Assembly (NCBI GenBank): GCA_013306675.1 | Contig: JABLUY010000308.1 | Span: 1-36,786, forward strand | Reading direction: 5' to 3' | Source of the DNA: Thraustochytrium sp. TN22 | Taxonomy: Eukaryota > Sar > Bigyra > Thraustochytrida > Thraustochytriidae | DNA: 36,786 bases | In this document: one piece after another, positions 5,097-36,786 of the stretch | Layout: each line of letters opens with the position of its first letter | How positions within the stretch are numbered: the first letter of the stretch is position 1 | Notes under the pieces: generated by a model | Database searches by the model: none | Told to the model about the DNA's origin: nothing | Seen by the model: only the letters and a program-made list of their open reading frames with translations | Program-made: the position numbers and the translations under genes

Positions 5097-5668
5097 TATG
5101 TACAGCGCCGGCCGCCCCGAGTTCGCCCTGGCGCCTTGGACGTTGTGTCAAGCTCTCTAAAAGAGCATAACGATGCGACAGATGATGCTGGCCGAAGACG
5201 ACGACCGGAGCGTCGAGCCCGCAAGCGTGGCCGAGCGCCGCGTAGCAGGCCGTGCTGTGCCAGGACAGGCCAAGGTCTGCAAAGCGCGGCAGCCGGCGGG
5301 CGGAGGCTACGACTCAGGAGACCGTGGGCCACAGCCTGGACCTCACCCGCGCCTGTGGCTCGGCGCCTCTGCGTACGCTCTGGCTCGCATCCGAGGCTGC
5401 GGCGCAGGACGGTCTTCAGGACGGCAAGTCATCCCCATAAGATGTAGATGTACAGCGCCTGCCGCCTCGAGCTCGCCTTGGCGCCTCGGTCGTTGTGTCA
5501 AAAGCGCTAAGAAAAAGAGGCAATCGATGCGACGTACGATGACGGCCGAGGACGACGACCTGAGCGTCGAGCCCGCAAGCGTGGCCGAGCGCCGCGTGGC
5601 AGGCCGTGCCGTGCCAGGCCAGGCCAAGGTCTGCAAAGCGCGCCAGGACGCGGGCGGAGGCCACGACT
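4971..5668. repeat. Tandem duplication spanning TMPK 3' end and the next gene's 5' end
   Basis: Two diverged copies lie head to tail, unit 1 at 4971-5314 and unit 2 at 5315-5668, both opening with CAGGAGA. Each carries the thymidylate kinase C-terminal codons and stop, about 75 bp of spacer and an ATGCGAC start followed by AEDDD...SVEPASVAERR. Offset is 344 bp in the left half and 354 bp in the right half, so about 10 bp of indels separate the copies. Between unit 1 and unit 2 the second half differs mostly at third codon positions in the AEDDD frame. The TMPK tail half shows a mixture of replacement and silent changes. Confidence 0.9.
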
Positions 5669-20500: not shown

Positions 20501-23500
20501 AAGACGGCGTGCTTGGCGTCTGACGCAGCCCCTGCCGCGCTTGCGCCATGGTGGCGCCGCTCAGCACGCCGCCCACGGGCTGCGCCATGAGCCGCTGCGC
20601 GCCCGGCGTGCGGCTTAGCAAGGCCTCGGCCTGCGAAGGACTTGGCGGCGGCCTGCGCGAAATGCCGAGGCTCGACGCGGGCCGCGCGACCGCACCCGGC
20701 GAGTCCTGCTGTCCGCCGTCGCCGTCGCCGCCGCCGCCGTCGCCGTTGCGGGACGCGGGCGTGCCCTCGCGAGACCGAGCAAAGGCCGCCGCGGCCCAAG
20801 CCGCCACGCGGAACTTGCGCAAGTGGTCCAGCTCCTGGCCGCTGTCGGGCGAGCTGCGGATCACACGGCCCAGCTTCTCGTCCATGCTCTCCTCCGCTTG
20901 TTCGTCGCGTACGCTCGTGCCGCCCACCTCGGCAGACCTGGTCCTGCGCGGGGGCGTCACAGTGGACGGTGCGAATGCGACGGGCGAGCGCGCCGCCTCC
21001 GGGGCCGGCGTTTCGGCGGCGCTCGACAGCGCCGCCTCCGGGGCCGGCGTTTCGGCGGCGCTCGACAGCGCGCTCGAGCGCCGCCGCCGCCGCCGCTGCG
21101 CCGGCGATGCGACGGGAGTGGCAGGCGCCCCTGCGGAGCTGCGCTCGGCTTCGCTCTCGTCGTAGTCCGAGGTCTCGCCGTCGCTGCCGTACGCGACGAG
21201 GTGCGGGCCAGCCGCGGGGCGACGCTCGGACCGCTCCACGGCAGATCGAAGCTTGTTGTCCTCATCCACGCCGCTCTCCTCGTCCTCGTCGCCCAAGGCC
21301 TCCTCGTCGCTCCCATACGCAAGGCCGGACCCAACGTAGTTGTGCTCCTCGCCCATGTCGCTGCCGGGGTCCGAGCTTGCCATGGACCCGTACCGGGACC
21401 GCCGCCGCCGACCACCACCAGGCCCGACGCTGTCCGTCTGCGACAGGTAGCTGACGAGCCGACGGTGCCGCGGCCGCTGCTGCTGTTGCCGCTGCAGGGC
21501 ACTCGACGTCGTGCTCAGGGCATCATCGTCCACACCGGGGCCTGCGTAGGTGCGCCTCGCCTTGGTCTTCACGTCAAGCTCGTCCTCACTGTCCGAGTCA
21601 CGCGCGAGCGCGTCCTTGGCATCGTCCCCATCGTCCTCGGACGACGAGCTCCCGTACATGGCCGCATCATTTGTAGAGCTTGCAGACCCGGCGCGCGACT
21701 GTCGCCTCCTTCGCGAGAATGATGCGTCCGCGGATTGTGGGCCGCCCGCGCCAAAGTGCGAGGGCAGCCTTGCTGCCAGGGAGGAGCCAGAGGGCGCAGG
21801 CTGTTCGCCTGTGCTAGCCTTCTTCGCCGTGGCCCTTTCCTCATCGCTGTCGCTGTCGCTGGCCACGGTAGCTTCGCCAAAATGGGAGGGCAGCTTTGAC
21901 AGGCCAGTCTTCGGTGCAGCGACCACACCCTCATCGCTGTCACTGTCCGAGTCGACACCGGCCGCCGCGCCGGTCACCTCGTCGTCGCTGCCGCTATCCG
22001 AGTCCTCGACAACGTCCTTGGCCTTGGCAGAGCCGGGGGCGCCGGGCGCCGCTGCCGCAGCGGCCTTATCCTCGGTATCCTCGTCTTCGGAGGAGGATGA
22101 CTCATCCTCATCAACCCTGCCGGCGGCCTTGGCCTTGACGCCGTCCTTGGCCTCTTCGTCCTCATCGTCGGAAGAAGAGTCGGACTCCTCGCCATTCTTG
22201 CCCAGGACCTCCTTCTTCGAAGGCGCGGCCTCCTCCTCGTCAGACCCACCCTCGCTGCCGGCACGACTTTTGGACGTTGCCTTGTTCTTGGCGGCGGCGG
22301 CTTCCGATTCGGACTCGGACTCGGACCCGGACTCGGACTCAGACTCGGACTCGGACTCGTCGGAGCCGTCGCCGCCATCGCCGGCGACCTTGGCCTTTTG
22401 AGTCTTGCTCTTCTCTTTGCCTGCGGCTTTGGCGGTCTCCGCGTCGCCGCCGTCCTCCTCCTCCTCCTCCTCGCTGCTCGACGCGTCCTCTTCGTCCTCG
22501 CCCTTGTCCTTGGCGCCTGAAAGGCCACGTGCCGCGCGGAGCGCGGCGGCGCGGCGCTCCTTTGGATCCTTGGGCGCCTCATCTTCACTGCTGGACTCCT
22601 CGCTGCTAGAGTCCTCCTCTTCGGACGAGGCCGTGGACTTTTTGGCAGCAGACGCAGCCGGGGCCTTGGCGGCGGCTTCCTCGCCCTCGTCCTCAGACTC
22701 GGACTCGGACTCGGATTCCTCGCTGCCAGTCTCGCTGGTCTCGCTGCCTGCGCGAGTTTTGCCGTGCCCCGACATGGAGGGGGCGCCGGCCTTGGCCTTG
22801 GCCTTGGCACCCTCGTCCTCGTCCTCGGAGGCGGACTCTTCCTCCGACCCGGACTCCTCTCCCGAGCTGGACTCCTCCTCGGACCCGGAGCCCTTGCGGG
22901 CACGCGAGGCGGCCGCGCCGCCAGCCGCGGCGCCGGCCGCGCCGCCGAGAACCTTGGCAGCCACGCCGCCGTCCTTGGCATCGTGGTCCTCGCCCTCGCC
23001 CTCGTCCTCGGACTCGGACTCGGTGACGGAGCCGCCATCGGACTCGTCGCTTGCGGACGGGTGCTGGGCGCGGCGCACGGTCTCGTCGCGAATATCCGGC
23101 ATGTCGTCGTCCGAGTAGGGCTCGGACTCGGCACCGGAGGACGAGACGCGGCGCTCCCGGGAGGAAGTCTTGAAGTGGCGGAAGCTGACCTCGTCGCTGA
23201 ACTGGACGCCGCGGCCGGACTTGGCGGAACGGCCGGAGCCTTCGATGTCCTCATCGGAGTCGTCCACGGGCAAGCCGCGCATGAGGTGAATAATGCGCAC
23301 AAGCTTGACGCGGTCGCCCATTTTAAAGCCCATGCTCTTGAGGTGGTCGTCGGTGAGCAAGAGAAACTCGGGCAGGCCGATCTTCTCCTTCTTGAATTTG
23401 GACGCGTGCTGCACAAGGTTGATGGCGCGCAGGAGGTCGTCCAGACTGTGGATGTCAGCGCGCGCGAGCGACTCGATGTTGAGCGCGCTGTCGCGCAGGC

Positions 23501-24374
23501 CCTGAAGCGTCTTGTGCACCTCGATCTTTTCGCTGTCGAGCAGACGGAGCGAGTTGCGCTTGTCGAGGCGCGAGGTCGTGGACACCACGTCGCCCTTGGA
23601 GTGGCCGGCCGCGAGCTTGGATACGGACGCGCCGTTGAGGATGACCACGCCGGGGCCCTCGGGTCGTGCCCAGACGCGGTCGCCCGTCGTCTGGTTCACG
23701 TAATAGCGTTCGTCGTTTTCTGGGTCCTTGTTGGAGATCCAGACCACGACGGCGTCGTCTGCGCCGGCCTTGCCAGCGGCAGCCGCGGCCCTGGTCGGCT
23801 TGGCGTCGTCCTTCTCCTCCTCCTCGTCGGACGACTCCGCGTCCTGCTCCCGGGCCATGCGCGCCAGGCCCTCGCGCGTCATGCTCTGGCGCTTGGTGTC
23901 GACGCCGCGCGCGCTGGCGGTGCGTGACGCAGCAGAGCCCGTGGCGCCTGCGTCGCGGCGGAGGCCGGCACCGCTGCCCGCGGCGCCCGAGGCGTCGCGG
24001 CGAAAGGTGCCTCGGCGCGGCTCGTCCGGCTCGGTGTCGCTGCCGGAGCCGGAGCCGGCGCCGCCCTGCCGCTGCTCCTGTTCGCCGGGCGTCCGCTTGC
24101 GTCGCTTGAGCCGCTTGCCGATGGACTTGCCCATCTTCTTCGGCCCGCGCTTGATGCCCGACCCGATCTTCGCCGCGTTGCGCGCCAGGTTCCTGCGCAG
24201 CACGGCCAGCACCGAGTCCTTGCGCTCGTTGTGCGCGGACAGCGTCGACGTGCCGGAGCTCGCGGACGAAGCCCCGCGCGCGCCGCCCGCGGCGCTGGCC
24301 CCTGCGGACGACGCGCCGCGGCCGGCGCCGGCGCCCGTCGCCGTCGCGCCGCCCTTCGCGCCGCGCTTCATCAT
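17538..24374 (-). CDS. Giant WW-SAM protein with long Ser/Asp/Glu-rich tail (2278 aa)
   Basis: This single open frame of 2278 codons starts with two adjacent ATGs (24374 and 24371). The N-terminus is Ala/Gly/Ser-rich, then strongly basic (GKSIGKRLKRRKR, about residues 80-92). A WW domain follows at about 212-240 (W..., RYYVNQTTGDRVWARP), and a SAM domain at about 310-363 (INLVQHASKF..., LLLTDDHLKSMGFKMGDR). The remaining ~1900 residues are dominated by Ser, Asp and Glu with short aromatic islands such as AYGSDEE, PDYDSGESDE and LGYFMSEGEDD. The last ~70 residues are basic again (RRTHRWSVDSES, ARRRRSRASAKAR). WW domains bind proline motifs and SAM domains oligomerise, so a phospho-regulated scaffold is plausible; this is inference. 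No orthologue is recognised. Confidence 0.8.
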   Translation of the reverse strand: MMKRGAKGGATATGAGAGRGASSAGASAAGGARGASSASSGTSTLSAHNERKDSVLAVLRRNLARNAAKIGSGIKRGPKKMGKSIGKRLKRRKRTPGEQEQRQGGAGSGSGSDTEPDEPRRGTFRRDASGAAGSGAGLRRDAGATGSAASRTASARGVDTKRQSMTREGLARMAREQDAESSDEEEEKDDAKPTRAAAAAGKAGADDAVVVWISNKDPENDERYYVNQTTGDRVWARPEGPGVVILNGASVSKLAAGHSKGDVVSTTSRLDKRNSLRLLDSEKIEVHKTLQGLRDSALNIESLARADIHSLDDLLRAINLVQHASKFKKEKIGLPEFLLLTDDHLKSMGFKMGDRVKLVRIIHLMRGLPVDDSDEDIEGSGRSAKSGRGVQFSDEVSFRHFKTSSRERRVSSSGAESEPYSDDDMPDIRDETVRRAQHPSASDESDGGSVTESESEDEGEGEDHDAKDGGVAAKVLGGAAGAAAGGAAASRARKGSGSEEESSSGEESGSEEESASEDEDEGAKAKAKAGAPSMSGHGKTRAGSETSETGSEESESESESEDEGEEAAAKAPAASAAKKSTASSEEEDSSSEESSSEDEAPKDPKERRAAALRAARGLSGAKDKGEDEEDASSSEEEEEEDGGDAETAKAAGKEKSKTQKAKVAGDGGDGSDESESESESESGSESESESEAAAAKNKATSKSRAGSEGGSDEEEAAPSKKEVLGKNGEESDSSSDDEDEEAKDGVKAKAAGRVDEDESSSSEDEDTEDKAAAAAAPGAPGSAKAKDVVEDSDSGSDDEVTGAAAGVDSDSDSDEGVVAAPKTGLSKLPSHFGEATVASDSDSDEERATAKKASTGEQPAPSGSSLAARLPSHFGAGGPQSADASFSRRRRQSRAGSASSTNDAAMYGSSSSEDDGDDAKDALARDSDSEDELDVKTKARRTYAGPGVDDDALSTTSSALQRQQQQRPRHRRLVSYLSQTDSVGPGGGRRRRSRYGSMASSDPGSDMGEEHNYVGSGLAYGSDEEALGDEDEESGVDEDNKLRSAVERSERRPAAGPHLVAYGSDGETSDYDESEAERSSAGAPATPVASPAQRRRRRRSSALSSAAETPAPEAALSSAAETPAPEAARSPVAFAPSTVTPPRRTRSAEVGGTSVRDEQAEESMDEKLGRVIRSSPDSGQELDHLRKFRVAAWAAAAFARSREGTPASRNGDGGGGDGDGGQQDSPGAVARPASSLGISRRPPPSPSQAEALLSRTPGAQRLMAQPVGGVLSGATMAQARQGLRQTPSTPSSAGAPTISPLHAAVASAGARRARVSEAFFEDQERMVQGSPELSGGESLPEIDVAESENDPEVDDITLQPVVLSDSDAEDSDDESDEATEAEARAMDNLAASRGTDAQDEAGSVSAENEHADRRAGKKPLPSRYVSGMSEGTEESRESIPGLAFMHKRKSSEELFDYLSGQPSDDDDDDRMGAISDDGDSRIDRGPLLARSRAGTVSSATGATAAAASQRSPTYARPDYDSGESDEDEEDEEPPKELSQVQKMALALDDRVRAAEARDAADDDDDDDDDDGEYVGPLLGSPSPRRVRSSSDESSEGESTLPTPPQLPRVAGPKTPPTPVSWSQPAQAPSQEDASEYTTSDDDSALRISSVESSSRHEDEGAGPKVGPDVKNSPEAVSASSIAAGAAVDGSGSPLKFGPDIKPWMMQNSPSSQAAGAATGDGGAESADEEEPTPRKYISPTTLGYFMSEGEDDDDDDDDDEEETEEADEAVYKKDDLVKEVETADSVAAAEDVHTASSSEEDDELQDLKVPTPPTARVAARAATSAEAEPILTPLEANEVEEAKSPTSTEPRSAPAKADAGSAFGSDSDSEDEEGGDMGLALNAASARERAQRALRKPPPAAVESDAESDEESDEDDESAAFEAALAAKAAVPRFQHEHEALSTEEESESEGESEGESELEAEREVDAAPRRGRSRGVQREVDEDGESESDEEADAVSREASLAAQSREPSAQAPDTLEMEHQEGLYRSGRRSHLTSSEDEDEEDDQGSRTATETVESFGSSPRMDEPLEEEDENVDAEDVYATRDGRFDLSDVEEQGAGGAVSRSYHSHGVVVAAGRNSGELLKEIAKDETFAASGAWSSMADVSVLHSARVRATLIDGSTSDMDEVSETDDEVREERARELARRALGASANAEASASDSDNCMLSSTVRRTHRWSVDSESSMDSFPSSDDMAADPRDARLARRRRSRASAKARALVARGTAEAILGQGLGQNFGEEL
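20992..21069. repeat. Perfect 39-bp tandem repeat inside the giant gene
   Basis: Two identical 39-bp copies (20992-21030, 21031-21069) encode the repeated peptide ALSSAAETPAPEA. Identity in DNA indicates a very recent duplication in the disordered tail. Confidence 0.95.
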
Positions 24375-25180: not shown

Positions 25181-26236
25181 TTAGGTGAGCTGGAGGATGT
25201 CGCCGGAAGGCTCGACGGGCTGCGGCTCGTCCGGCTCGTCCTGGACAGGCTTGGTCTCGGCTGCAGGGCGTGACGGAGCACTGCGGACGAGGAAGAAGAT
25301 GCCCACGAGGATGGTGAGGATGCCGCACAGAAAGAGCGCCCACTGCTTGCGGCGGAAGCAGGAGAACTCCTCAAAGAAGATGCCGCCGAAGGTTGTGCTG
25401 CAGATGATGAGCATGGTGGAGTACAGTGGCGAGAAGACGGTGCAGGCGAAGGCGGCGAGGCCCTGGCCGATGAAGGAGACCTGCGCGATTGCCATGACGA
25501 GAAAGGCAACCAAGAAGGCGAAGCCAAGAACCGGGTCTTGATCGAACGCGGGCCGGCCTTGCGCTTGCGAGGAGATGAGCTCAGAGACCTGCTTCATGAA
25601 GATGTTCGCTTGCGCGCCGATGAGCCCGGCCGTTGTCGCGTGCAGGAGAGGCAGACACCGGGAGGGAATTGCCATTCGAGCTCGCGGCACCTTGAGCACG
25701 AGGACGCTGACAAAGATGCTCGCGAAGGCGAAGGCCTGCGCTGTCACGACTGCCGGTTGCCGCCAGAGCGCCTTGAGATCGGCCATGCTGTAGTCAGCCT
25801 GCACGTGGACACCAAAGGCCGTGGTGAGCACGATGCCGACAATCACGACGAAACTGGCCAGGTACGCGTCTCGCGAGACGGTCTCGCCCTCCAGCATGCG
25901 GTCTCCCGCAAACTGCGAGAAGACCAGCGTTAGGGCGCCCAAGGGCGCGATGAGCGAGTGGGCGGCCAGCGCGAAAGCGAGCAGGTCGAGCAGGACCGGC
26001 GCCAAGCCCATCAGGAGGAATGCCAAGCACCAGCGCGGTGAGAGCACGATGCCAGGCACGGGCTCACGCCAGCGCTTCGAGGGCTCCAGCTCGGCTTGTT
26101 CCAGCGATGCCTGGCGCATCACCACGTTGCCTAAAGCGCATAGCGAGGCCCCAAGCACGCCGCACGCTACGCCCAGCAGCCACAACAGGTTCGTCGCGTC
26201 CGGCTCCGAGGCATCCGCGCCGCCGCACGATGCCAT
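25181..26236 (-). CDS. NIPA/DUF803-type magnesium transporter, paralogue A
   Basis: This is a multi-pass transporter of the NIPA family within the drug/metabolite transporter superfamily; characterised members carry Mg2+ and other divalent cations. The 351-residue protein has about nine hydrophobic spans. Family-like blocks are LLWLLGVACGVLGASLCALGN at the N-terminus (quoted here only to its first span), then PLGALTLVFSQFAGDRM, and a Tyr/Ser-Met-Asp-Leu stretch before LWRQPA. The C-terminal half has FSPLYSTMLI and FGGIFFEEF. Start at 26236 is chosen by alignment with paralogue B, which has the same length. The C-terminal tail is acidic and Pro-rich. Substrate is inferred from the family only; the acidic tail is probably cytosolic. 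Confidence 0.85.
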   Translation of the reverse strand: MASCGGADASEPDATNLLWLLGVACGVLGASLCALGNVVMRQASLEQAELEPSKRWREPVPGIVLSPRWCLAFLLMGLAPVLLDLLAFALAAHSLIAPLGALTLVFSQFAGDRMLEGETVSRDAYLASFVVIVGIVLTTAFGVHVQADYSMADLKALWRQPAVVTAQAFAFASIFVSVLVLKVPRARMAIPSRCLPLLHATTAGLIGAQANIFMKQVSELISSQAQGRPAFDQDPVLGFAFLVAFLVMAIAQVSFIGQGLAAFACTVFSPLYSTMLIICSTTFGGIFFEEFSCFRRKQWALFLCGILTILVGIFFLVRSAPSRPAAETKPVQDEPDEPQPVEPSGDILQLT

Positions 26237-26876
26237 GCTCGTCCAAGCGAGGCTGGCGATCCGCTGGTTACCTGTCTGCTCACTGTCAGTGTCACATTGA
26301 TGTGCTGCAAATGACTGAGTCAAGGTTGATTTTCGGCCCGCGTGATTCACTGTCATTGGCAAGGCCGGGCCAAGTCCTCGCTTGCAGTGGGGATTGCCAG
26401 TGCAAATTAGTAATTGGAGTGTCTGTCACGGTCGCTCGGCCGCGCGACGCGGCGGTGCACAGGTTGCACAGCCGCTGACGCGGGTACTCGCGCTTTGGAG
26501 AGAACCAGACTTCAAGTACTGCCAGTGCGCGCTGCTGCGCTGCGGCTCGCTGCGGCCGCTGCAGTGCGGCATCATGGACTCACTGTCAGAAAGAGCAGCC
26601 AGCGCCGGCGCCTGTAAAGTTCGGTCTCACTGCACAGGCTGTGGCGCGAATGAAGAGCGACTCCGCGGAGAAGCACGGGGAACAAGACCTGCGCTCCGCT
26701 GCGGCCAAGTTGGAAATAAAACGCAGAAATGAAACAAAAACCGAAAACAAGCTGAGAGAGGACTCGACCATAGATAAAGTTACTCGGAAAAAGCGGGTCA
26801 GCGGCCTGCAGTGCAAGAGTACACGTGCGCACAGCACGCCACCTCGGCCCAGGTAGGCTACGCGTGCAAAGAAAGT
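26237..26876. other. Intergenic region between NIPA-A and NIPA-B
   Basis: About 640 bp hold the promoter of NIPA-A and the 3' UTR of NIPA-B. It is less GC-rich than the genes. CACTGTCAGT occurs at 26281-26290 and CACTGTCAG at 26581-26589, and TTAGTAATT at 26407-26415. A charged 71-codon plus-strand frame at 26641-26856 has no supporting features and was not called. Confidence 0.55.
26281..26290. promoter_or_regulatory. Candidate element CACTGTCAGT upstream of NIPA-A
   Basis: This 10-mer lies 45 bp upstream of the NIPA-A start. Exact copies lie at 31606-31615 and at 35009-35018, the latter upstream of NIPA-D. A second shared 9-mer, TTAGTAATT, lies at 26407-26415 here and at 34972-34980 near NIPA-D. 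A regulatory role is only a suggestion from recurrence. Confidence 0.3.
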
Positions 26877-27932
26877 TCAAGGATCAGACTGGATCTTGGC
26901 GGCCTTGGCGTCCGGATGATCTGGTTCGGGAGAGCGGGTGGCCACTATCTCAAGATCGTCAGGACCAGCGTGAGTGCTGCGGATGAGGAACGCGATGCCT
27001 ACAAGGATGATGAGGACGCCACACACGAAGAGCGCCCACTGGTCGGGCCCGAAGCAGAAAAACTCCTGAAAGAAAACGCCTCCGAATGTCGTGCTGAAGA
27101 CGATGAGCATGGTGGAGTAGAGCGGAGAGAATACGGTGACGGGGAAGGCCGCGAGGCCCTGGCCGATGAATGAGAGCAGGGTGACGGCCATGCCGAGGAA
27201 GACCACCACAAAGACGAAGCCGAGGCCAGGTTCCTGGTCAAAGGCAGAGCCGCCCTGCGCTTGGGCGGAGAAGAGCTCGCCCACGTGCTTCATAAAGATG
27301 TTGAACTGCGCGCCGATGAGCCCAGCTGCTGTCGCGTGCAGGAGGGGCAAGAGCCGCGCGGGAACCGCATCACGCGTTCGTGGCGTCTTGACCACGGCTA
27401 CGCTAAGCAGGATGCTTGCGAATGCAATGCTCTGAACCGCGATGGTCGACGGCATCCGCCAGAGCGCCTTGAGGTCGGCCATGCTGTAGTCTGTCTGGAC
27501 GTGGACGCCAAAGGCTGTCGTGAGGACGATGCCGACGATGATGATCAAGCTGGCCAGGTACTGCGCCTTGGAGACCGTCTCCCCATCGACCATGCGGTCG
27601 CCGGCAAACTGCGAGAAGACCAGCGTGAGGGCGCCCAAGGGCGCGATGAGCGAGTGGGCGGACAGCGCGAAGGCCAACGTGAGCAAGACTATGGGCGCCA
27701 GCCCCATGAGCAGGAGGGCCACGCACCAGCGCGGCGAGAGCACGATGCCGGGGAGTGGTTCGGGCCAGCGTCTGGACTCCTCCAGACGCCCCTGCTCCAG
27801 CAAGGCTTGCCGCATCAGGACGTTGCCTATTGCGCTGACCGAGCACGAGAGCACGCCGCACGCCACGCCCAGCAGCCACAGCATGCCCCCCGAGTCCTGC
27901 CCGGCGCGCTCCGCGCTCTCGCACGCCGTCAT
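26877..27932 (-). CDS. NIPA/DUF803-type magnesium transporter, paralogue B
   Basis: This is the closest relative of paralogue A: same length (351 residues), colinear, and nearly identical in stretches (GMLWLLGVACGVL, SLIAPLGALTLVFSQFAG, DYSMADLKALWR, VFSPLYSTMLI). DNA identity is also high around 27600-27740 against 25905-26050, which points to recent tandem duplication or gene conversion. About nine membrane segments are predicted. The start at 27932 is the first ATG and aligns with A. It is divergent from the TPR gene, whose start is 343 bp away. Transport of Mg2+ is inferred from the family; the tail after the last span differs from A. Confidence 0.87.
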   Translation of the reverse strand: MTACESAERAGQDSGGMLWLLGVACGVLSCSVSAIGNVLMRQALLEQGRLEESRRWPEPLPGIVLSPRWCVALLLMGLAPIVLLTLAFALSAHSLIAPLGALTLVFSQFAGDRMVDGETVSKAQYLASLIIIVGIVLTTAFGVHVQTDYSMADLKALWRMPSTIAVQSIAFASILLSVAVVKTPRTRDAVPARLLPLLHATAAGLIGAQFNIFMKHVGELFSAQAQGGSAFDQEPGLGFVFVVVFLGMAVTLLSFIGQGLAAFPVTVFSPLYSTMLIVFSTTFGGVFFQEFFCFGPDQWALFVCGVLIILVGIAFLIRSTHAGPDDLEIVATRSPEPDHPDAKAAKIQSDP

Positions 27933-28275
27933 CTCGTACGCCAGCGCGCTGCTCAGCCTTGATTGCTTCGTTTGGTGTGCAGTGGTTCTTGTTGAGAGTC
28001 TGCGACGGGTCAGAGGACCCCGCTCTCGGGCCTTGCTCGCTCACGTCTAGCTTGACGCGGCTAAGCGAGCCGGGCCGCCGCGCCGCAGGCTCACGGACTC
28101 GCGCTAGCTCCGAGTCGGGCTCGCCAGCGCGATCGAGACCGGCAGCGCGACGGCGCGCGTGCAGTGCCTCGATCCTGAGAGGTCGCACGTGCCGCACGCG
28201 CCGCGGACCGCGCCACGCGGCCAGCGCAGCGCCGCCAGCAGAACGCATCCGCACGCCGCCGCCGCGCGCGCCGCC
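27933..28275. promoter_or_regulatory. Divergent promoter region, NIPA-B / TIR-like TPR gene
   Basis: This 343-bp spacer separates two divergent starts. The NIPA side is relatively AT-rich (27955-28010), and the TPR-gene side is GC-rich and ends in GCCGCC before the ATG. No specific element was identified. Confidence 0.45.
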
Positions 28276-30408
28276 ATGCCGGGCGTCCTCTCGCGCGCGC
28301 GCAGCTGGCGCCGCAGCCTCGACGACCGGCGCAGGAGCTCGCGCTACCTGGCGGCGGAGAGAAAGATCATCGACTATCGCAGCGTCAGCGTCGCCTTCCT
28401 CGAGCGCACGGCACGCCGGCTGGTCGAGGAGGTCGAGGCGCCCGGCGTGCGCCTCTTCGTCGCCACGCGCGACATCAACGACGACGTCAAGGCCGGGGCC
28501 ACCATCGAGCTCTACGAAGTCAATGAGCAGGGCTTCATGATTGGCCGCGTGCCCTACGTCGACGACCTCGTCGAGTTCACGGAGGGCGTCGACGCCAGGC
28601 CCAAGCCGCGCAGCGAGTGGACCACGGAGGACGTAGCGGAGCACGTGGTCCTCGCCAAGACGCGCAAGATGCGCACCAAGCAGTTCTTCATCAACACCAT
28701 CCAGAACGCCGCCGACGTCGGCCAAAAGTACCAGGGCACCTTCGTGAGCCAGGCCCGCAAGTGCAGCTTCCACGACCTCGTCGCCGCCCTCGTCGCCCAC
28801 TTCAGCGACAAGCCGCCCCACCTGCGCTTCGTGTGGCTCGACCTCTTCTGCGCCAACCAGCCGTTGCTGACCACCAACGACACCGACCTGCCCGACGACG
28901 TCGTCGCCGCCCGCCAGGCCTTCCTCAACACCGGCCTCCACGAGGCCATCACGCGCTTCGACAGCGCCATCATCTTCTTCGACAGATGGGACAAATCCAT
29001 GCCCCTCCAGCGCGCATGGTGCGTGTGGGAGATTTACGGCGCCGTGCGCAGCGGCGACCCCGTCGACGTCGTCTACGCGCCCGGCCAGGAGGACAGCTTC
29101 GTCAAGCAGCTGCTGGACGACCCGAGGGAGATCGCCACCATCATGGCCCGCAACATGGACATGAGGAACGCGGCCTGCTGGAAGCCCGAGGACAAGGCCA
29201 TGATCGACCGATCCGTGACCGAGAAGCTCGAGGGCGGCTACTCCACCCTCAACACGGAGATCCAGGGCCGGCAGCGCGCCTGGCTCGCCGCCATCGCGCG
29301 CGACCGCGTCGCCGACCTCCGGCAGCGCGGCGACGGAGACCCCGTCGAGATGGCCCGAATGCTGCACCAAGCTGCCAGCCTTCTTGATGACTACGGCGAC
29401 TATGACGAGGCGCTCCAGTACTACAAGGAGGCGCTGGATCTGTTCCGGGAGGCCATCGGGCCGCAGCACGCGTACGTGGCGGACACGCTAAAGAACATTG
29501 CGGTCGTGTACTCGAACCAGGGTCGCTACGAGGATGCGCTGCGCTACTACAACGAGGCGCTGGAGCTGACACGGGAGGCCCTCGGGCCCCGGCACCCGGG
29601 CGTGGCGGACACGCTTTACAACATAGCGGGCGTGTACAAGGCCCAGGGCCGCTACGAGGATGCGCTGCGCTACTACAACGAGGCGCTGGAGCTGACACGG
29701 GAGGCCCTCGGGCCGCGGCACCCGGACGTGGCGGCAACGCTCGATAACATGGCGATCGTGTACAAGGCCCAGGGCCGCTACGAGGATGCGCTGCGCTACT
29801 ACAACGAGGCGCTGGAGCTGACACGGGAGGCCCTCGGGCCGCGGCACCCGGCCGTGGCGACGACGCTCAACAACATGGCGAACGTGTACGGCTCCCAGGG
29901 CCGCTACGAGGATGCGCTGCGCTACTACAACGAGGCGCTGGAGCTGAAGAGGGAGGCCCTCGGGCCGCGGCACCCGGACGTGGCGGCAACGCTCAACAAC
30001 ATAGCGGTGGTGTTTCGTGCCCAGGGCCGCTACGAGGATGCGCTGCGCTACTACAACGAGGCGCTGGAGCTGAAGAGGGAGGCCCTCGGGCCGCGGCACC
30101 CGGGCGTGGCGGCAACGCTCAACAACATGGCGGTCGTGTACAAGAACCAGGGCCGCTACGAGGATGCGCTGCGCTACTTCAACGAGGCGCTGGAGCTGAT
30201 GAGGGAGGCCCTCGGGCCGCGGCACCGATCTGTTGCGGTCACGCTGTACAACATCGCAGATCTTCACAAGACGAGGCGTCGCTTCGGTCAAGCATTGCCG
30301 CTGTTTGAGGAGGCGCGGAGCATCTATGAGGAGGTGCTGGGCTCCGAGCACTCAAAGACAGTGGACGCTGCGGCTCAGGTCCGACACTGCCGCAGCCAGT
30401 TGCGTTGA
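28276..30408 (+). CDS. TIR-like N-terminal domain fused to kinesin-light-chain-type TPR array
   Basis: The 710-residue protein has three parts. Residues 1-150 have no recognised domain. Residues 150-335 carry a conserved protist module: FVSQARKCSFHDLV at 156, WLDLFCANQ at 187, then AIIFFDRWDKSMPLQRAWCV with W248-C-V-W-E252. The order strand/Ser, Asp strand, hydrophobic strand, W-x3-E resembles TIR domains, where the Glu of W-x3-E is catalytic in NAD-cleaving members; that equivalence is my inference. From residue 374 there are eight 42-residue TPRs of the kinesin light chain type (RYEDALRYYNEALEL...LGPRHP). Such database hits are often labelled kinesin light chain, but no kinesin-binding heptad region is present. 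The ATG at 28276 is in a GCCGCCATG context. Confidence 0.75.
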   Translation: MPGVLSRARSWRRSLDDRRRSSRYLAAERKIIDYRSVSVAFLERTARRLVEEVEAPGVRLFVATRDINDDVKAGATIELYEVNEQGFMIGRVPYVDDLVEFTEGVDARPKPRSEWTTEDVAEHVVLAKTRKMRTKQFFINTIQNAADVGQKYQGTFVSQARKCSFHDLVAALVAHFSDKPPHLRFVWLDLFCANQPLLTTNDTDLPDDVVAARQAFLNTGLHEAITRFDSAIIFFDRWDKSMPLQRAWCVWEIYGAVRSGDPVDVVYAPGQEDSFVKQLLDDPREIATIMARNMDMRNAACWKPEDKAMIDRSVTEKLEGGYSTLNTEIQGRQRAWLAAIARDRVADLRQRGDGDPVEMARMLHQAASLLDDYGDYDEALQYYKEALDLFREAIGPQHAYVADTLKNIAVVYSNQGRYEDALRYYNEALELTREALGPRHPGVADTLYNIAGVYKAQGRYEDALRYYNEALELTREALGPRHPDVAATLDNMAIVYKAQGRYEDALRYYNEALELTREALGPRHPAVATTLNNMANVYGSQGRYEDALRYYNEALELKREALGPRHPDVAATLNNIAVVFRAQGRYEDALRYYNEALELKREALGPRHPGVAATLNNMAVVYKNQGRYEDALRYFNEALELMREALGPRHRSVAVTLYNIADLHKTRRRFGQALPLFEEARSIYEEVLGSEHSKTVDAAAQVRHCRSQLR
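29395..30402 (+). repeat. Eight in-register 126-bp TPR-coding tandem repeats
   Basis: Units begin at 29395, 29521, 29647, 29773, 29899, 30025, 30151 and 30277 with exactly 126-bp spacing. The first and last are diverged; the six internal ones share a 46-bp block encoding helix B (RYEDALRYYNEALEL), with one single-base change in the last. Differences cluster in the part encoding the following helix A. Confidence 0.95.
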
Positions 30409-30439
30409 TTTGGCACAAGGTCGATCGCGAGACATGTGA

Positions 30440-31480
30440 ATGATGTTTGTTTTGCTTGCGATGCGACGCTGGCATTTCTTGTTGCTGTTCCTCATGCTGG
30501 CCTTGGCGGGCTGCGCGGCGAACGCGGACGCGGACTTGGCGGTGACGGACGATGTGAGAGTGGGCGACAAGCGCTTCCCTGTAGCGGTTGGCGCCAACAA
30601 GAACGAGCGCCCATAGCTGCTCGCGACCGTCGAGGGCCAGTGCGACATGACGGGGAGGGGCTTTCGGGAGAGCGGGCGCCTCCCTCTCCTGCACAACTTC
30701 TGAGCCGAGACTTGGGACGAACGCGCTCACGACTACGGCATCGTTCTCATCACAGAGGATCGCAAGCAGGTAATATGCGCCACCATGGACGCCATCGAGG
30801 ACAGCACGGGCGGGGCGCGCTTCGTCGACGTGGCGGACAGGCTCAAGCGACACGCGCCAACGCCTACTGGGCCCTGTGCTTCATCTTTAACAAGTAGGTC
30901 GCCGTTGTCGCCCTGGCGACGCCGAGGGTCGGCCCGGTATCAGACCGATGGTTGCGAGCCCACGCAGTGAATGCTGCCCGGGACTAGCGTGCTGACTACA
31001 ACCTGGTGGGCGTCTTTGTTGGCGCCGCGCAGGTCGATGAGCAGCTCGTGGCTTTGGAGATCAGGCGCTGGGTGCCTTCTCTTGGAGCGTGCGAAGTGAT
31101 GGATGGTCGGCTGCACCTCCATTGGGATCTCGGTGTTGCCACGGCCAGTGCAGTGGTCCAAAGGTCACACTCGAGAGGCTTTCGGCGGCCCGGGCCCCCA
31201 GTCCTCGCTCAAGGTGGCCTTCCGTCCTCAGGCTCGGGCGATGTGACACACCGTCCCTCACCATCAATGCCTGCGCACGGGGCTCGTCGGGATCGGCGAC
31301 TACTCCACGCGCTATGGGGGGTGCTTCAGCTACAGAGTGAGGCGTATTATGAACAGCAGTGTCGTGAATCTTGGCGAGATGAGGTGCTTCATCGATGAGA
31401 TCAGCACGCATGAGCTGCAGCTTGTGGCAGACGCGGATGCCGCTCCAAGCCACGGCCGCTGGGGAGCGCGACCGTGCTGA
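30440..31480 (+). pseudogene. Probable decayed gene for a secreted or membrane-anchored protein
   Basis: From the ATG at 30440 a 58-codon frame reads a strong signal-peptide-like start (MRRWHFLLLFLMLALAGC after MMFVLLA), then stops at TAG 30614-30616. The same frame continues with coherent sequence, a second stop at 30701, and an open run to 30970. A different frame is coherent at about 31000-31165 (DYNLVGVFVGAAQVDEQLV). The original frame returns at about 31274 (GLVGIGDYSTRYGGCFSYR) and ends at 31480. I read this as a relict broken by stops and frameshifts. An intron-containing gene is the alternative. The LAGC motif resembles a bacterial lipobox, possibly by chance. The family is not recognised. 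Confidence 0.4.
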
Positions 31481-31813
31481 GTCGAGCGGCAGCTCAGCTC
31501 GCGCGGTGCCTGCGTTGCAGCTTGCTGCGCAAGGGCGTCTGGGGACTGGTTCACATTTTTCGGGCCCCGGGCCGGCGGAACTGCACATTCGCTGTCACGC
31601 GCTGTCACTGTCAGTCGGGCTGCTGCAAGCACGTGGTAGGGAGGTGACGGTGGTGCACGGTGGTGACGGTGGCCACCAACAGCCAAGCTCAGAGAGCGAG
31701 AACGAGCCAAAGAGTTCGATCGACAGCGACGTCTGTGAGACGCAAAAGGGAAGGTTAGGAAGGTTGTAGAATCTTAGTGGTACAGTAGTGATCAGTGCAG
31801 CGCACCGCGCCAG
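31481..31813. other. Intergenic region before the NIPA-C 3' end
   Basis: This stretch has mixed composition and no convincing gene. It contains one copy of CACTGTCAGT (31606-31615) and presumably the 3' UTR of NIPA-C. Confidence 0.5.
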
Positions 31814-32995
31814 CTACACGTAGTCGACGGCCGCGGTGGCATCCTTAGCGGCGGTGTCGGGGCTGGCGGCGCGGAAGCTCGTCGTCGCCGCCGAGAGGCT
31901 GGTCCGCTTGGTCTGCAAGGTTGCCTGCGGGGCGTCGCTGGAAGTAGTAGCCTTTGCGACAGGTGGCGATACATCGGAGACTGCAGCTTGGCTGGGCGCA
32001 GCAAGCGGAGATGCCTGGGCCTTGAAGCGAACCAGCAGGTACATGCCGAGCAAAATGGTGAGCAGGCCGCAGACGAAGCCCGCCCACCGGGACGGCGAGA
32101 GGCCAGCAAACTCGTTGAAGAAGATGCCGCCCAGGATGACGCCGCTGACGAGGTGGAAGGCCGCGTTGAGAGGCGTGAAGATGCTGACGGGGAAGCGAGC
32201 CAGGCCTTGGTTGACGAAACTGAGCAGAGAGGCGGCGAGGAGGAGAAAGGCCAAGACAAAGGTCAAGGAGAGCAGCGGCTCGTGTGAGAAGGGCTTGGTC
32301 TCGCCGGCGAGCTGCGTGGTGACGAGCTCGCCCACGCTCTTGAGCATGAGGGCCATCTGGCCGCCGAGTAAGCCCGCCAAGAAGGCCCACACCACGGGCA
32401 AGAGCGGCTCGGCGACGATGTGGTCGAAGCGGGAGGGCAGCAGGAAAGCGAGCGCCAGGATCATGGCGTACGCTACGCTCTGCGACGCGATGGTCGCCGG
32501 CCGCCGCCAGAGCGCCAGCAGCTCGTCCAGGCTGTACTCATGGGACTCGTGGCTGCCGAAGGTGGTGCAGATGGCGATGCCGGCCAGCATGGTGAGCCCC
32601 GCCCCGAGCTCCTTGGCGGTGACGGTGTCGTCCTCGAGCACGCAGGGCGCCAGGAGCTGCGAGAAGATGATGGTGCTTGAGCCGACCGGCATGGCGATGG
32701 TCTGCGGCGCGAGCGTGAGTGCCGTCATCATGAGTGGAATGGGCAGCAGCGCCATGCACACAAAGCCCACCACCCACCTCGGCGAAAGCACTACGCCCTT
32801 GATGGGCTCCAGCCACGCCTTGCCCTCGTCGCGCAGTCTCCGTTGTTGCTCCTGCGCCGTCTTGCCCGCAATCATGCCGAGCGTAACGAGCAGCGCGGAC
32901 GCCAGGTTCACCATGGCGCCGGCGAGCCAGAGCATCCCGCCGGCGGCCTCGTCGGGGTTCTCGGCGGCCGCCGAGGGCGCCGACGTCGCGTTCAT
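31814..32995 (-). CDS. NIPA/DUF803-type transporter, paralogue C (divergent)
   Basis: This 393-residue member of the cluster keeps the family layout with about nine membrane spans, but is clearly more diverged than A, B and E. GMLWLAGAMVNLASALLVTLG opens the first span (compare the LLWLLGVACGVL of A). PVGSSTIIFSQLLAP replaces the PLGALTLVFSQFAG block, and IFTPLNAAFHLVSGVILGG replaces the FSPLYSTMLI block. A Ser/Thr/Ala-rich tail of about 60 residues follows the last span. The start is the ATG at 32995; the frame upstream uses no ATG. Substrate could differ from Mg2+, given the altered central motif. The long plus-strand frame over it is a shadow. Confidence 0.8.
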   Translation of the reverse strand: MNATSAPSAAAENPDEAAGGMLWLAGAMVNLASALLVTLGMIAGKTAQEQQRRLRDEGKAWLEPIKGVVLSPRWVVGFVCMALLPIPLMMTALTLAPQTIAMPVGSSTIIFSQLLAPCVLEDDTVTAKELGAGLTMLAGIAICTTFGSHESHEYSLDELLALWRRPATIASQSVAYAMILALAFLLPSRFDHIVAEPLLPVVWAFLAGLLGGQMALMLKSVGELVTTQLAGETKPFSHEPLLSLTFVLAFLLLAASLLSFVNQGLARFPVSIFTPLNAAFHLVSGVILGGIFFNEFAGLSPSRWAGFVCGLLTILLGMYLLVRFKAQASPLAAPSQAAVSDVSPPVAKATTSSDAPQATLQTKRTSLSAATTSFRAASPDTAAKDATAAVDYV

Positions 32996-33585
32996 CGCGG
33001 CCACTTCGAAGTTCGCGCTACGTGCTAGCTAGCTAGCTTGAAGGCTTTGTCTCTACGCCGCCCCCGCCGCCGACGCTTGCCAGCGCGGTCCCGTGGGTGA
33101 CCGCGCCGTGCAGGTGCCCCGTGGCGACCTGCCTGGCACGACTAGTACTGCAGCGGGCGGGCGGGCGGGCGGGCGGGCGCTCGCGCGAGCGGCGGGCGGC
33201 CAGGCGCCGCGCGCGAGCCTCGCCTCCGAGCCGCGAGGCTCGAGCACGTGAGCGCCAGCGCGCGAGAACGAGACCGCGCGCCGCGATGATGGCGATTTAT
33301 TGCGAGCCTCGGAGAGGTTTGGGGACTAGGCCTAAACCACTTTACAGAATTACAGAATTACTGGTAGCGCGCAAGGCGCGCGCAATGGCACCCGGTGGTT
33401 CCGCTGCGTGCGTTCGCGGCCCGGGACGTAGCAGAAGTCCAGCGGGACAACTGCGCGCTGAGCTGAGCGAGAGCTTGCTTGTGCACGGTGCCGTTCATCT
33501 CAGACACAAGAACGATCTGCTTCAAGTTCAGGGCGTTCAGGTTGGTTTGCAGCCTCCGACTCGGAGTCGTCCAGCTAAATAGCGG
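32996..33585. other. Intergenic region between NIPA-C and NIPA-D
   Basis: About 590 bp containing the NIPA-C promoter and the NIPA-D 3' UTR. A GGGC repeat (33154-33179) could form a G-quadruplex on the plus strand. On the minus strand AATAAA occurs at 33294-33299, a possible polyadenylation signal for NIPA-D about 290 bp past its stop. No gene was seen. Confidence 0.5.
33154..33179 (+). repeat. (GGGC)6 repeat, potential G-quadruplex
   Basis: Six consecutive GGGC units give more than the four G-triplets needed for an intramolecular quadruplex. They lie about 160 bp upstream of the NIPA-C start. Confidence 0.85.
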
Positions 33586-34743
33586 CTAGCACTCAGCTAG
33601 ATTTTGGTTGGTGGGCGACCGCGACGATGGGAACGGCGAGGACTTGGTCGTGGGGAAAAAGGAGAAGGAGGAGGAGGAGGAGGAGGAGGAGGACTCTGGG
33701 AAAGAAGTCGCAGGCTTTACGGGGAGGGAGAAGCTGCGGTCATCGGGCGCCTGCGGCGGCGAGGTGATCGGGGCCGAGGCGGAGACCTGGAGTACGAGGA
33801 GGAGCATGCCGCAGCAAATGATGAGGATGCCGAGAGCGAGCATCGACTTGCCAAGCTGGCTCAGACAGCGCAGCTCGTCGAAGAAGATCGCACCCTCAAG
33901 CGAACCCCAGATGATGAGCTGGCCCATGTAGAGCGGCGCGAAGAGCGTGCAGTCGAAGAGGGCCAGCCCCTGATTGACGTAGCTGAGAAGCGCCACGCCG
34001 AGAAGGATGAAGGCGATGATGAGACCTGCCATGACGCCTGGCGCCTCGTGAAAGGCGTTGGAGCTGCCCTCGAACTTGGTGGCCAGCAGCTCGGCCAAGA
34101 TCTTGCAGAGCGTGTTGAAGTGGCCTGAGAGGATGCCCGAGATGGCGGCGTAGACGACTGGGAGCGCCGCGTGCGGGATGCGGCGTACCACGCTGCGCGT
34201 GCGCACGACCAGTCCAAGGACGAGCAGCGCTGCATAGGTGCTCGCTTGGAGCGCCACGTTCGCCGGGCGCCGCCAGAGCGCGCGGATCTCATCCAAGGCG
34301 AAGCTGTCGGTGGTTCGATTGCCAAATGCCAGGCTGATGGCAATGCCTGTCACAATGACAAGGCCGGCCACGAGGTCGCGCACCGAGACGGACTCCTTTT
34401 CAAGCAGGCGCGGCCCGAGTACCTGCGTGAAGACGATGCTCAGGGCGGTCAATGGCAAGACGAGAGTCTGCGGCGCCAGCGCGAGGCCGACAAAGGTCAA
34501 GGCGACGGGCAGAAGGCTCTGCAGCGTCAAACCGAGCACCCAGAGCGGCGAGAGGATGAGCCCCGCCACAGGTTCTGGCCACTTGCGGCCAGTTTCCAGC
34601 GCTTGCTGCTGCTCATGCGCACGTTTGTAGACCACGAAGCCCGCCGAGTCTGACAAGGCCGTGCCGACGGCGGCCGCCACACCGCCAATCCACGCCAAGT
34701 CCGCGCCCTCGGCCCTGCCAATCGTGCCGCATTCCTCCCCCAT
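33586..34743 (-). CDS. NIPA/DUF803-type transporter, paralogue D (divergent)
   Basis: This 385-residue paralogue has about nine spans and recognisable family positions: WPEPVAGLILSPLWVLG, PLTALSIVFTQVLGPRLLE, DEIRALWRRPA, QGLALFDCTLFAPLYMG and EGAIFFDEL. It is diverged from A and B in the loop after the fifth span. The C-terminal tail is Ser/Pro-rich and contains a polyserine run encoded by a (GGA)n stretch on the plus strand (33667-33692). The start at 34743 (MGEECGT) is chosen by alignment with paralogues; upstream codons in frame come from a GAGAC repeat. Mg2+ or related cation transport is inferred from family membership alone. Confidence 0.8.
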   Translation of the reverse strand: MGEECGTIGRAEGADLAWIGGVAAAVGTALSDSAGFVVYKRAHEQQQALETGRKWPEPVAGLILSPLWVLGLTLQSLLPVALTFVGLALAPQTLVLPLTALSIVFTQVLGPRLLEKESVSVRDLVAGLVIVTGIAISLAFGNRTTDSFALDEIRALWRRPANVALQASTYAALLVLGLVVRTRSVVRRIPHAALPVVYAAISGILSGHFNTLCKILAELLATKFEGSSNAFHEAPGVMAGLIIAFILLGVALLSYVNQGLALFDCTLFAPLYMGQLIIWGSLEGAIFFDELRCLSQLGKSMLALGILIICCGMLLLVLQVSASAPITSPPQAPDDRSFSLPVKPATSFPESSSSSSSSSFSFFPTTKSSPFPSSRSPTNQNLAEC

Positions 34744-35479
34744 GCCAAGTGGGAGATGTTGAGACTGGATGCGACGAGACGAGGCAAGATGAGACGAGAC
34801 GAGACGAGACGAGATGAGATGATAAAGAGACGAAGCGAGGCAATGAGCGTTTGTTTGCCCTGCCAGCTGTCCATGCGCAATCATGTGTCAGCCGGCTCAC
34901 GGCCAGCGAGGAGGTGTAGGAAGCAGCTCCAGTGAGTCGGCCGCCCGACTTGGAGCACGTAATTATAAAAGTTAGTAATTTTCCGCCCACTGGCACTGCA
35001 CTCACCACCACTGTCAGTGCACTGGCTGCTGGCAGCCTGACTCGGACCCGGACCCGGGCCGGAGCTGCAATCATTGCCGTTCTCCTTCGAGTCAAGCGAG
35101 ACTCGGCCCGGAGAGCGCCGCCGCGGCCCGCGGCTGGTGCCGTGACGGCGTGGCGCCAGCTGCGGCCAGCGGCAGCAGCGGCAGCTGGTCCCGCGGGTCC
35201 GTCAGCGGGGCGGCGTGCGGCTCAGCTGCGCGCGCTGCACGCGGCGCAGGTCCGTAGGAACTAGGCCTACTAGGAAGCAAAATGCAGCAAGCCTGGCTGC
35301 GCCTGGCTGCAGCGCAGTTCTGTCCCTCGTGACAGGACCGACCTGTCCTGTTCCTGGCGGCCGTCCGTGTCCTTTGCACTTTGCAAGGTTTGCAAGTCAG
35401 GTGGGACTCGAAACAGATCGCGGGCCGGGCTCGAGCCGAACAGGCAGAGCAAATAAACATGTTGTATTAGTTGTAATGA
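34744..35479. other. Intergenic region between NIPA-D and NIPA-E
   Basis: About 740 bp with the NIPA-D promoter and NIPA-E 3' UTR. It contains a GAGAC pentanucleotide repeat, TTAGTAATT (34972-34980) and CACTGTCAGT (35009-35018). A 110-codon plus-strand frame from 34932 has no supporting features. Confidence 0.55.
34791..34822. repeat. (GAGAC)n / GAGAT pentanucleotide repeat
   Basis: Four perfect GAGAC units followed by GAGAT units lie just upstream of the NIPA-D start codon, in its presumed 5' UTR. Confidence 0.9.
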
Positions 35480-36649
35480 TCAAACGAATTTGTGGCCCTG
35501 GTCGCTCGCGGCTCGGGTAGTAGGGTCCGAAGGAAAGGGCTGTCTCGTAGTGGGGGACGACTCGGACGGCTCCGCCTGCTGGTCCTCTGCGCGAACCTTG
35601 TTCTCGAAGTCGAGATCCTGCATGCCGGCATGCTGGTCCGGCGAGGGTGCGACGGGCGCCGGTGGGCCCAAGACGGCGGTGCCGCTCGCGGCGAGCGTGA
35701 GCGCGCCGCCGATGATGGCGCAGAGCCCGAGAACGTAAACGATCCACTGCCGGCGCGAGAAGCAGTTCATCTCGCGGTAAAAGACGGCGCCGTTCACTGC
35801 GCTGAAAAAGATGAGCATGGTGCTGTAGAGCGGCGAATAGAGCACGCAGGAGAACTTGGCGAGACCCTGCGCAAAGTAGGAGAGCTCCACCACGGCTAGC
35901 ACGGCATACCAGAGCATAAAGAAGGCGCCCAGGAGCGGTTCGGCGCTCAAGGAGGACCGGCCAGCGATCTGCCCCTCGATCAGCTCCGAGACGGTCTTGA
36001 GCGTGATGGTCGCCTGCGAGCCGGCCAGGCCGGCGCAGATGGCATACACCAGGGGCATGAGCCGCGGCGGGAGCGCAAGCTGCAGGCGCGGGCTCTGGAT
36101 GACCGTCATGCAAACACCGAGCCCCGCGTAGGCGAGGACCTGCGTCGCGATGGTGGCGGGTTCATGCCAGAGTTGCTTGATGTCGTCCATGGAGTACTCG
36201 ACTTGCATGTGCGCGCCAAAGATGGTGCAGAGCACGGTGCCGGCGATGATGGCCAGACTGGCGCCGTACTCGCGCCAGCGCACGGTCTCATCCTCCAGCA
36301 TGCGCTCGCCCGTGAACTGCGTGAGCACGAGCGTGAGCGCGCCCAGCGCCGTGACGAGCGTGTGCGCGGTGAGCGCGTACGCCACGAGATCCAGCAGGAC
36401 GGGCGCGACGCCCATGAGCAGGAAGCCGAAGGCGAAGCGCGGCGAGCAAATCAGCCCCGGCACGGGCTCCGGCGAGCGCTGCCCGGGCTCCCTGCGGTCC
36501 TGCTGCGTGGCCGCCTGTTTCAAAATGACGTTCCCCACCGCGCAGGCCGTCGAGCTGACCACGGTGGCGGCCACGCCGGCCAGCCACAGCAGGTTCCCGC
36601 CGCCGAGCTCGTCCAGGTCGCCCGCGGCGGCCTCGCACGCGGCCTCCAT
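35480..36649 (-). CDS. NIPA/DUF803-type magnesium transporter, paralogue E
   Basis: This 389-residue paralogue is closer to A and B than to C and D. Shared blocks include NLLWLAGVAATVV, ALGALTLVLTQFTGERML, EYSMDDIKQLW, YSPLYSTMLIFFSAVNG and FYREMNCFSRRQW. About nine spans precede a Pro/Ser/Glu-rich tail of about 60 residues. The ATG at 36649 gives an N-terminus of the same length as in the paralogues. An upstream in-frame ATG at 36751 would add 34 Arg/Gly-rich residues that look like translated GC-rich leader. Its promoter lies mostly beyond the right edge of the window. The family suggests divalent cation transport. Confidence 0.85.
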   Translation of the reverse strand: MEAACEAAAGDLDELGGGNLLWLAGVAATVVSSTACAVGNVILKQAATQQDRREPGQRSPEPVPGLICSPRFAFGFLLMGVAPVLLDLVAYALTAHTLVTALGALTLVLTQFTGERMLEDETVRWREYGASLAIIAGTVLCTIFGAHMQVEYSMDDIKQLWHEPATIATQVLAYAGLGVCMTVIQSPRLQLALPPRLMPLVYAICAGLAGSQATITLKTVSELIEGQIAGRSSLSAEPLLGAFFMLWYAVLAVVELSYFAQGLAKFSCVLYSPLYSTMLIFFSAVNGAVFYREMNCFSRRQWIVYVLGLCAIIGGALTLAASGTAVLGPPAPVAPSPDQHAGMQDLDFENKVRAEDQQAEPSESSPTTRQPFPSDPTTRAASDQGHKFV

Positions 36650-36786
36650 GCCGGCCGCCGCGCGCGCCGCGCGGCCGCCGCGTCCGCGCGTACGGCCGCG
36701 CCGCCTTTCCGGTTCTCCTCCTCGCCGCGCCAGCCCGCGCCAGCCCGCCATGTCGCGCCATGCCGGCTCGTGCCGGGCGGCGCGGG

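Follow-up and report, generated by a model that had tools for sequence, protein, structure and literature searches.

A putative NTPase-free receptor gene family with a probable TIR/HET-like domain and TPRs that vary at their ligand positions

The window analyzed here, a stretch of 36,786 nucleotides that forms contig C231 of a genome searched in 453 contigs (37.9 Mb), carries on its forward strand, at positions 28276-30408, an uninterrupted open reading frame of 710 amino acids that begins with an ATG at 28276 (context gccgccATGcc) and belongs to a large family of the same genome. Amino acid change within its TPRs, and within those of its paralogs, is concentrated at the ligand positions of the repeat, and this variation is the strongest evidence of our analysis, stronger than the W-x3-E motif of the N-terminal domain (N-domain). 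The explanation that we tentatively favor is that the gene encodes an NTPase-free intracellular receptor, in which a TIR/HET-type effector is joined to a diversifying TPR sensor and which may serve in immunity by cleaving NAD+ with E252 as the catalytic glutamate. The four motifs that the original prediction had read from the N-domain, with a W-x3-E following a hydrophobic strand, are all present in the order given below (M is residue 1).

28276..30408, + strand: 710-residue open reading frame with a family-specific N-terminal segment, a probable TIR/HET-like domain and eight 42-residue TPRs (basis: 46 aligned paralogous N-domains of the same genome, that of the window gene included)
28276..28632, + strand: residues 1-119, conserved family-specific segment (L60, G74, K110, R112, W115 and D119 invariant in alignment A1; no Pfam match at cut-off)
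28723..29085, + strand: residues 150-270, probable TIR/HET-like core (hhalign against a TIR profile of the same genome, 95-101 aligned columns; averaged propensities)
28741..28758, + strand: FVSQAR, residues 156-161, putative beta-A (aligned with TIR FLSHxWG)
28834..28860, + strand: WLDLFCANQ, residues 187-195, putative beta-B (W187 and D189 in 51/51)
28966..28980, + strand: AIIFF, residues 231-235, putative beta-C (N-domain alignment; averaged propensities)
29017..29031, + strand: W248-C-V-W-E252, putative catalytic W-x3-E (E252 in 49/51; TIR alignment)
29086..29310, + strand: residues 271-345, conserved tail with A299, C301, D306, M309, I310, G320, G321, R334 and W336 (recognizable in the divergent relatives L089 and L098)
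29353..30360, + strand: eight 42-residue TPRs, with units at residues 360, 402, 444, 486, 528, 570, 612 and 654 (Pfam, TRF)
29479..30234, + strand: TPR units 2-7, amino acid variation concentrated at repeat positions 2, 5, 9, 12 and 13 (pairwise unit comparison)

The original prediction had been drawn as a box at 28276-29290, which stops shortly before the conserved N-domain does and excludes the TPR array. This array is recognized by Pfam from about residue 360 onward (TPR_12, 2.3e-145) and by TRF as a 126-bp period repeated 6.4 times at 29419-30226. Since the N-domain ends at about residue 345 and the TPRs start at residue 360, a gap of some 15 residues, there is no space for an NTPase between them. 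In Pfam, residues 1-375 yielded a single sub-threshold match (E 0.23) and no NTPase match, and the NACHT or NB-ARC domain that stands between effector and repeats in NLR/STAND proteins is absent from the 710-residue protein. The predicted layout of an effector followed by a TPR array with no NTPase in between is thereby borne out. Elsewhere in the window, five genes for NIPA-type magnesium transporters lie on the reverse strand at 25184-36751, the receptor gene sitting between the second and the third of them; a 2278-residue uninterrupted frame on the reverse strand (17538-24374) has a SAM domain as its sole Pfam match at E<=0.001, and a 354-bp unit is present in two copies (85% matches) at 4971-5668.

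A genome search with the whole protein returned at least 90 matches (63 of 282 candidates were scored). When the N-domain of one divergent member served as the query, 113 rows merged into 104 places, 80 of which span at least 800 bp; 23 chosen rows from a second search and one from a third brought the collection to 116 places on 91 contigs. The approximately 100 related places are places rather than verified genes, and they include fragments, possible alleles and copies with stops (e.g., on C56, C293, and C442), which leaves the number of genes uncertain. Of the forty-eight loci first examined, 46 had an N-domain of sufficient length in a single frame and entered the alignment, and two partial ones (L018 and L047) were left out; alignment A1 comprises 33 of these 46. 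Within A1, residues W187, D189, W248, C249, W251, and E252 are invariant. When five divergent members are added to the 46, both W187 and D189 persist in 51/51, W248 in 48/51, and C249 and E252 in 49/51 each, E252 being lost in two of the five divergent members (L090 and L092). Divergent members and family can be treated as one superfamily, since L089 matches the family profile with an E value of 2.5e-20. Start, motifs, and TPR layout recur in the paralogs, so that the observed order of the motifs is more than chance. By the same comparison, the sequence FVSQAR, which had been taken for an unusual variant that might alter activity, turns out to be the norm of the family: position 159 is Q in 38/51 and position 161 is R in 46/51, while the W161 of FVSHxW occurs in 3/51, all of them divergent (L089, L098, and L092). 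Six divergent members lie about 4 kb apart at C448:21603-41938, and the one examined, L092, is without C249 and E252. Two further loci, L099 (C331:110000) and L100 (C111:458900), carry TPR arrays that are 77-80% identical to that of the window gene, with no effector-like motif in the 561 and 421 bases examined, respectively; they are possible repeat reservoirs or fragments.

Searches for relatives beyond this genome covered viruses, bacteria, archaea, and plasmids (the latter queried with L098), and none was confirmed in viral contigs, genome contigs, phages, or plasmids, the contig scans being keyed on short exact patterns. Five viral contigs found with a looser pattern were dropped as chance matches; the frames over the match were checked in three, one of which appeared terminase-like by eye, and two (L093 and L097) had no frame over it. 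We found no published account of the family in a literature coverage that most subscription journals fall outside of. The genome has no chlorophyll a/b-binding match, which suggests that the host organism is a heterotroph; it is presumably a unicellular eukaryote, judging by the size of the genome and its gene content.

The register of the repeats was set by the residues L4, M/I7, A/G8, Y11, A20, Y/F24, and A27, which constitute the TPR signature. It identified 199 TPR units in 44 of the 48 loci, with between 0 and 12 recognized units per paralog. Units 2-7 of the window gene are 85-93% identical in DNA and 79-88% in protein; the gene shares the internally conserved repeats of the hypervariable receptors of fungi and brown algae, with some pairs of these units below the 85% protein-identity threshold quoted for such repeats in a passage of Dyrka et al. 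(PMC4986451). Variation was assessed on 292 within-gene unit pairs from 19 loci, each pair with at least 30 of 42 residues identical. Amino acid differences are most frequent at positions 9 (0.75), 12 (0.66), 31 (0.66), 2 (0.64), 13 (0.59), 41 (0.54), and 5 (0.41), and do not exceed 0.20 at any other position. Positions 2, 5, 9, 12, and 13 belong to the seven positions at which TPRs in general vary most, and which lie on the concave face of the repeat according to an excerpt of PMC1261162. The family lacks variability at the other two canonical positions, 33 and 34; it varies at 31 and 41, and position 41 occupies the place expected of 33, immediately ahead of the following repeat.

At the five ligand positions, dN/dS amounts to 1.37 (bootstrap over loci 1.13-1.63) vs. 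0.35 (0.26-0.49) for the framework in these 292 pairs from 19 loci, ratios that stem from a counting method applied to repeat pairs of one genome, where within-gene pairs are non-independent and conversion may distort the values, and where the locus bootstrap covers the non-independence alone. For the window gene by itself, the corresponding values are 1.75 and 0.17 (15 pairs). Positions 31 and 41 give 1.29 in the family and 0.52 in the window gene. Only 35 out of 850,668 sets of five positions vary as much as the set 2, 5, 9, 12, and 13, and the excess at the ligand positions recurs in each of the 19 loci with usable pairs. Judged by the contrast of 1.37 with 0.35, the concave TPR face appears to be under diversifying selection, a pattern that makes a role of the TPRs in recognition likely and that does not tell a viral, a bacterial, and a mate-protein ligand apart. 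The receptor function that the original prediction had envisaged thus gains support from the excess of amino acid change at these positions. As a rule, TPRs vary at their ligand positions, and we have counted this against the explanation that we favor. Among close paralogs, L002 and L004 nearly share their first two units and differ in the interior ones, while L003 contains a two-unit block twice, as expected of repeat shuffling.

Repeat instability by itself might have driven the expansion, with conversion and relaxed constraint generating the variation and no recognition role being selected. Such a course of events would account for the stops at some of the places and for the very low dS values across residues 120-345 between the window gene and L002 (0.000), L004 (0.020), and L003 (0.035), which point to conversion or recent duplication and leave too few changes for an effector dN/dS. 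It would also fit the finding that the five positions have an elevated dS as well (0.42 vs. 0.12) and consequently differ from the framework in more than dN. Relaxed constraint, however, would spread change across the whole repeat, whereas the framework is held at a dN/dS of 0.35 and the excess at ligand positions appears in 19/19 loci; we regard instability without selection as very improbable.

Curated models do not name the N-domain. Its sequence found no match at the cut-off in Pfam, NCBIfam, and PADLOC, nor did the family consensus in Pfam; the consensus likewise retrieved nothing from PHROGs, and neither of the two had a meaningful match in the PDB, so that a direct match to a solved TIR is absent. 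The TIR models PF01582 and PF13676 matched neither the window protein nor any of 33 of the 46 aligned members. The HET model PF06985 did not match the window protein either, and its best result among 33 members was a single match at E 0.097. In genome-wide searches with both TIR models and the HET model, no match fell on any place of the receptor family, the sole genome place found with the HET model lying outside it. An hmmsearch with the family profile did not separate TIRs from shuffled sequences (best real TIR E 0.76; one shuffled sequence scored better at 0.081; the HET-domain protein P0002, discussed below, reached 0.036). Single-sequence AlphaFold models of residues 1-365 and 146-346 had pLDDT values of 39.5 and 40.9, too low for a reading of the fold. 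Propensities averaged over the alignment, a crude method, give strand-helix-strand-helix-strand up to residue 235 and a strand at 264-267; by the same crude measure WCVWE itself scores as a strand, where TIRs have a helix.

TIR domains are numerous in the genome itself: at E<=0.01, TIR_2 gives 126 matches, and 114 of these pass the Pfam cut-off. Some of these TIRs end proteins that look ROCO-like by eye, and one (L050) follows what appear by eye to be long helical repeats; at C160:1247-4627, four TIR-like matches, all containing a TGA in frame, follow one another at a spacing of exactly 1043 bp. By hhalign, we compared the receptor superfamily to a profile built from 30 of the TIR domains. Untrimmed, the two directions gave probabilities of 3.4 and 6.4%; after removal of gappy columns, the family-to-TIR direction scored 25.2 (8.7%, 101 columns) and the reverse 29.0 (22.7%, 100 columns). 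Both directions yield one co-linear alignment, in which FVSQAR pairs with FLSHxWG and WLD with WLDE. The IIFF strand matches the third strand of TIRs, and WCVWE matches CRxEF, placing E252 opposite the glutamate of the TIR C-x-x-E; the WLD block is followed by some 20 additional columns. Once the divergent members are removed, this register survives from TIR to family (1.7%), while family-to-TIR retains only a 26-column segment (0.3%). In the family-to-TIR direction, for which alone nulls were computed, none of 200 column shuffles (mean 13.4, SD 2.5, maximum 21.5) and none of 56 reversed or rotated TIR profiles (maximum 16.4) reached 25.2; seven windows of the ROCO-like alignment, named by eye, scored 10.3-15.9 in both directions.

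In TIR domains, the conserved glutamate of a W-x3-E after the third strand is catalytic. One TIR of the genome aligns its C-x-x-E with DWCWDE of Cat1 (E 0.0006) and DWVHKE of SARM1 (E 0.005), whose glutamate we take to be the catalytic one. As the TIR profile of the genome aligns with the family, and this one TIR with SARM1 and Cat1, E252 comes to stand, in two steps, at this presumed catalytic position. Homology of the N-domain to TIR/HET domains is supported by the profile comparison, but weakly so. The claim of a TIR-like domain accordingly holds for the order of the blocks and for E252 opposite C-x-x-E, while low scores and the lack of a curated TIR match keep its support weak to moderate. 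We consider the N-domain probably TIR/HET-like and assign it to membership of neither TIR nor HET.

A further possibility is that the protein is an ordinary TPR scaffold or cargo adaptor, similar to a kinesin light chain, which was amplified in the genome and whose N-terminal fold has no relation to TIR. Its 42-residue TPRs are of a type that we take to be that of kinesin light chains. Fungal NLR TPRs were modeled on kinesin light chain 2 in a passage of Dyrka et al. (PMC4986451), and the missing curated TIR match, the weak hhalign probability, and the strand score of WCVWE would all suit an unrelated fold. A housekeeping scaffold would not be expected, however, at some 100 places, with a ligand-position dN/dS exceeding 1 in those examined, and the in-register TIR profile match stands above all 256 nulls. 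We therefore hold a scaffold to be improbable.

One protein outside the family, P0002 (L049, C110:186306), combines MORN repeats with a Pfam HET domain (25.2 bits vs. a cut-off of 22.5), and a genome search with this domain found only P0002 itself. Compared with the superfamily by hhalign, it gave probabilities of 53% (49 columns) and 62% (26 columns) in the region of FVWIDFSCIDQ, a better match than that to the TIRs, reported here without a null. WLDLFCANQ of the window gene aligns with WIDFSCIDQ of P0002 in a W-x-D-x-x-C-x-(N/D)-Q block, which is the HET consensus block. P0002 shares the FVSHRW and FVWIDFSCIDQ blocks with the family but has repeats of the MORN type rather than TPRs, and GWIRVE where the family reads AWCVWE. 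"HET-type TIR" appears to be a closer label for the N-domain than TIR. HET is regarded as a distant relative of TIR, with homologs outside fungi that include stramenopiles and haptophytes, according to passages of PMC4986451, PMC12881547, and PMC10197012.

A TIR/HET-like domain need not be an enzyme. The N-domain might instead act as an adaptor that self-associates and recruits downstream TIR proteins without cleaving NAD, and the 126 TIR_2 matches of the genome, 114 over the cut-off, show that partners exist; signaling of this recruitment type was proposed for HET domains in a passage of Dyrka et al. (PMC4986451). Conservation of W187 and D189 in 51/51 and of E252 in 49/51 would seem to exceed what an interaction surface usually needs, and we consider a purely non-enzymatic adaptor rather doubtful, less so than a scaffold.

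The nearest published systems are the fungal HET-domain and TPR-bearing NLRs and the brown-algal NB-ARC-TPR and ROCO receptors. Fungal NLRs (the HNWD family; Pa_2_10340) resemble the window gene, as far as a passage of PMC4986451 describes them, in the N-terminal HET/TIR-type effector of HET-NLRs, in C-terminal internally conserved repeats, and in a concave TPR face under positive selection; they differ by the NACHT or NB-ARC domain between effector and repeats, whereas the window gene has no NTPase and an N-domain that the Pfam HET model does not match. The brown-algal NB-ARC-TPR and LRR-ROCO candidate receptors share the shuffled repeats, and the ROCO proteins selection on the concave LRR face (an excerpt of PMC11378527), but rely on exons that encode the repeats and on a core of the NTPase or ROC-COR type, whereas the receptor-family genes show neither introns nor an NTPase. 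For mollusc proteins, one oyster paper and one Aplysia paper each use the term TIR-TPR once, which is a likeness of name. In the genome under study, NTPase receptors look few, with 2 NB-ARC and 8 NACHT matches (7 over the cut-off). A W-x3-E is shared with the TIR NADases SARM1 and CRISPR-associated Cat1 (DWVHKE and DWCWDE vs. WCVWE, reached in two steps), as it is with plant TIR-domain NADases; a direct sequence match to a solved TIR is lacking and the columns inserted after the WLD block set the family apart.

Under the receptor model that we favor, the TPR superhelix (residues 360-695) would use its concave face to bind a ligand that is probably a peptide or a protein, and binding would cluster or free the N-terminal TIR/HET-type domain. 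This domain would then signal, most likely by cleaving NAD+ with E252 as catalytic glutamate, and the splitting of NAD+ would lead to metabolic arrest or death; adaptor action is its alternative output. Duplication, gain and loss of repeats, and conversion that keeps the framework uniform would diversify the family, with selection favoring new residues at the ligand positions. Fast change at the binding surface of the repeats is as expected of immune or self/non-self receptors, and we infer such a role for the family.

In a wider and somewhat doubtful extension of this model, the approximately 100 places would represent a repertoire of that many genes, operating without an NTPase switch in a probably unicellular heterotroph. 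A near-constant NAD-cleaving TIR/HET-type effector would be coupled to a TPR ligand face renewed by shuffling and selection, and ligand-induced clustering alone would bring about the death of infected or foreign-fused cells. An effector joined straight to its sensor in so large a family would show that the NTPase switch can be omitted, and the family would offer a minimal receptor for testing, with E252 as a defined candidate for the catalytic residue and the variable TPR positions as defined candidates for specificity. It would also broaden the range of HET/TIR-type effectors that carry selected repeats by a lineage in which the trigger, be it a virus, a bacterium, or a mate, can be sought.
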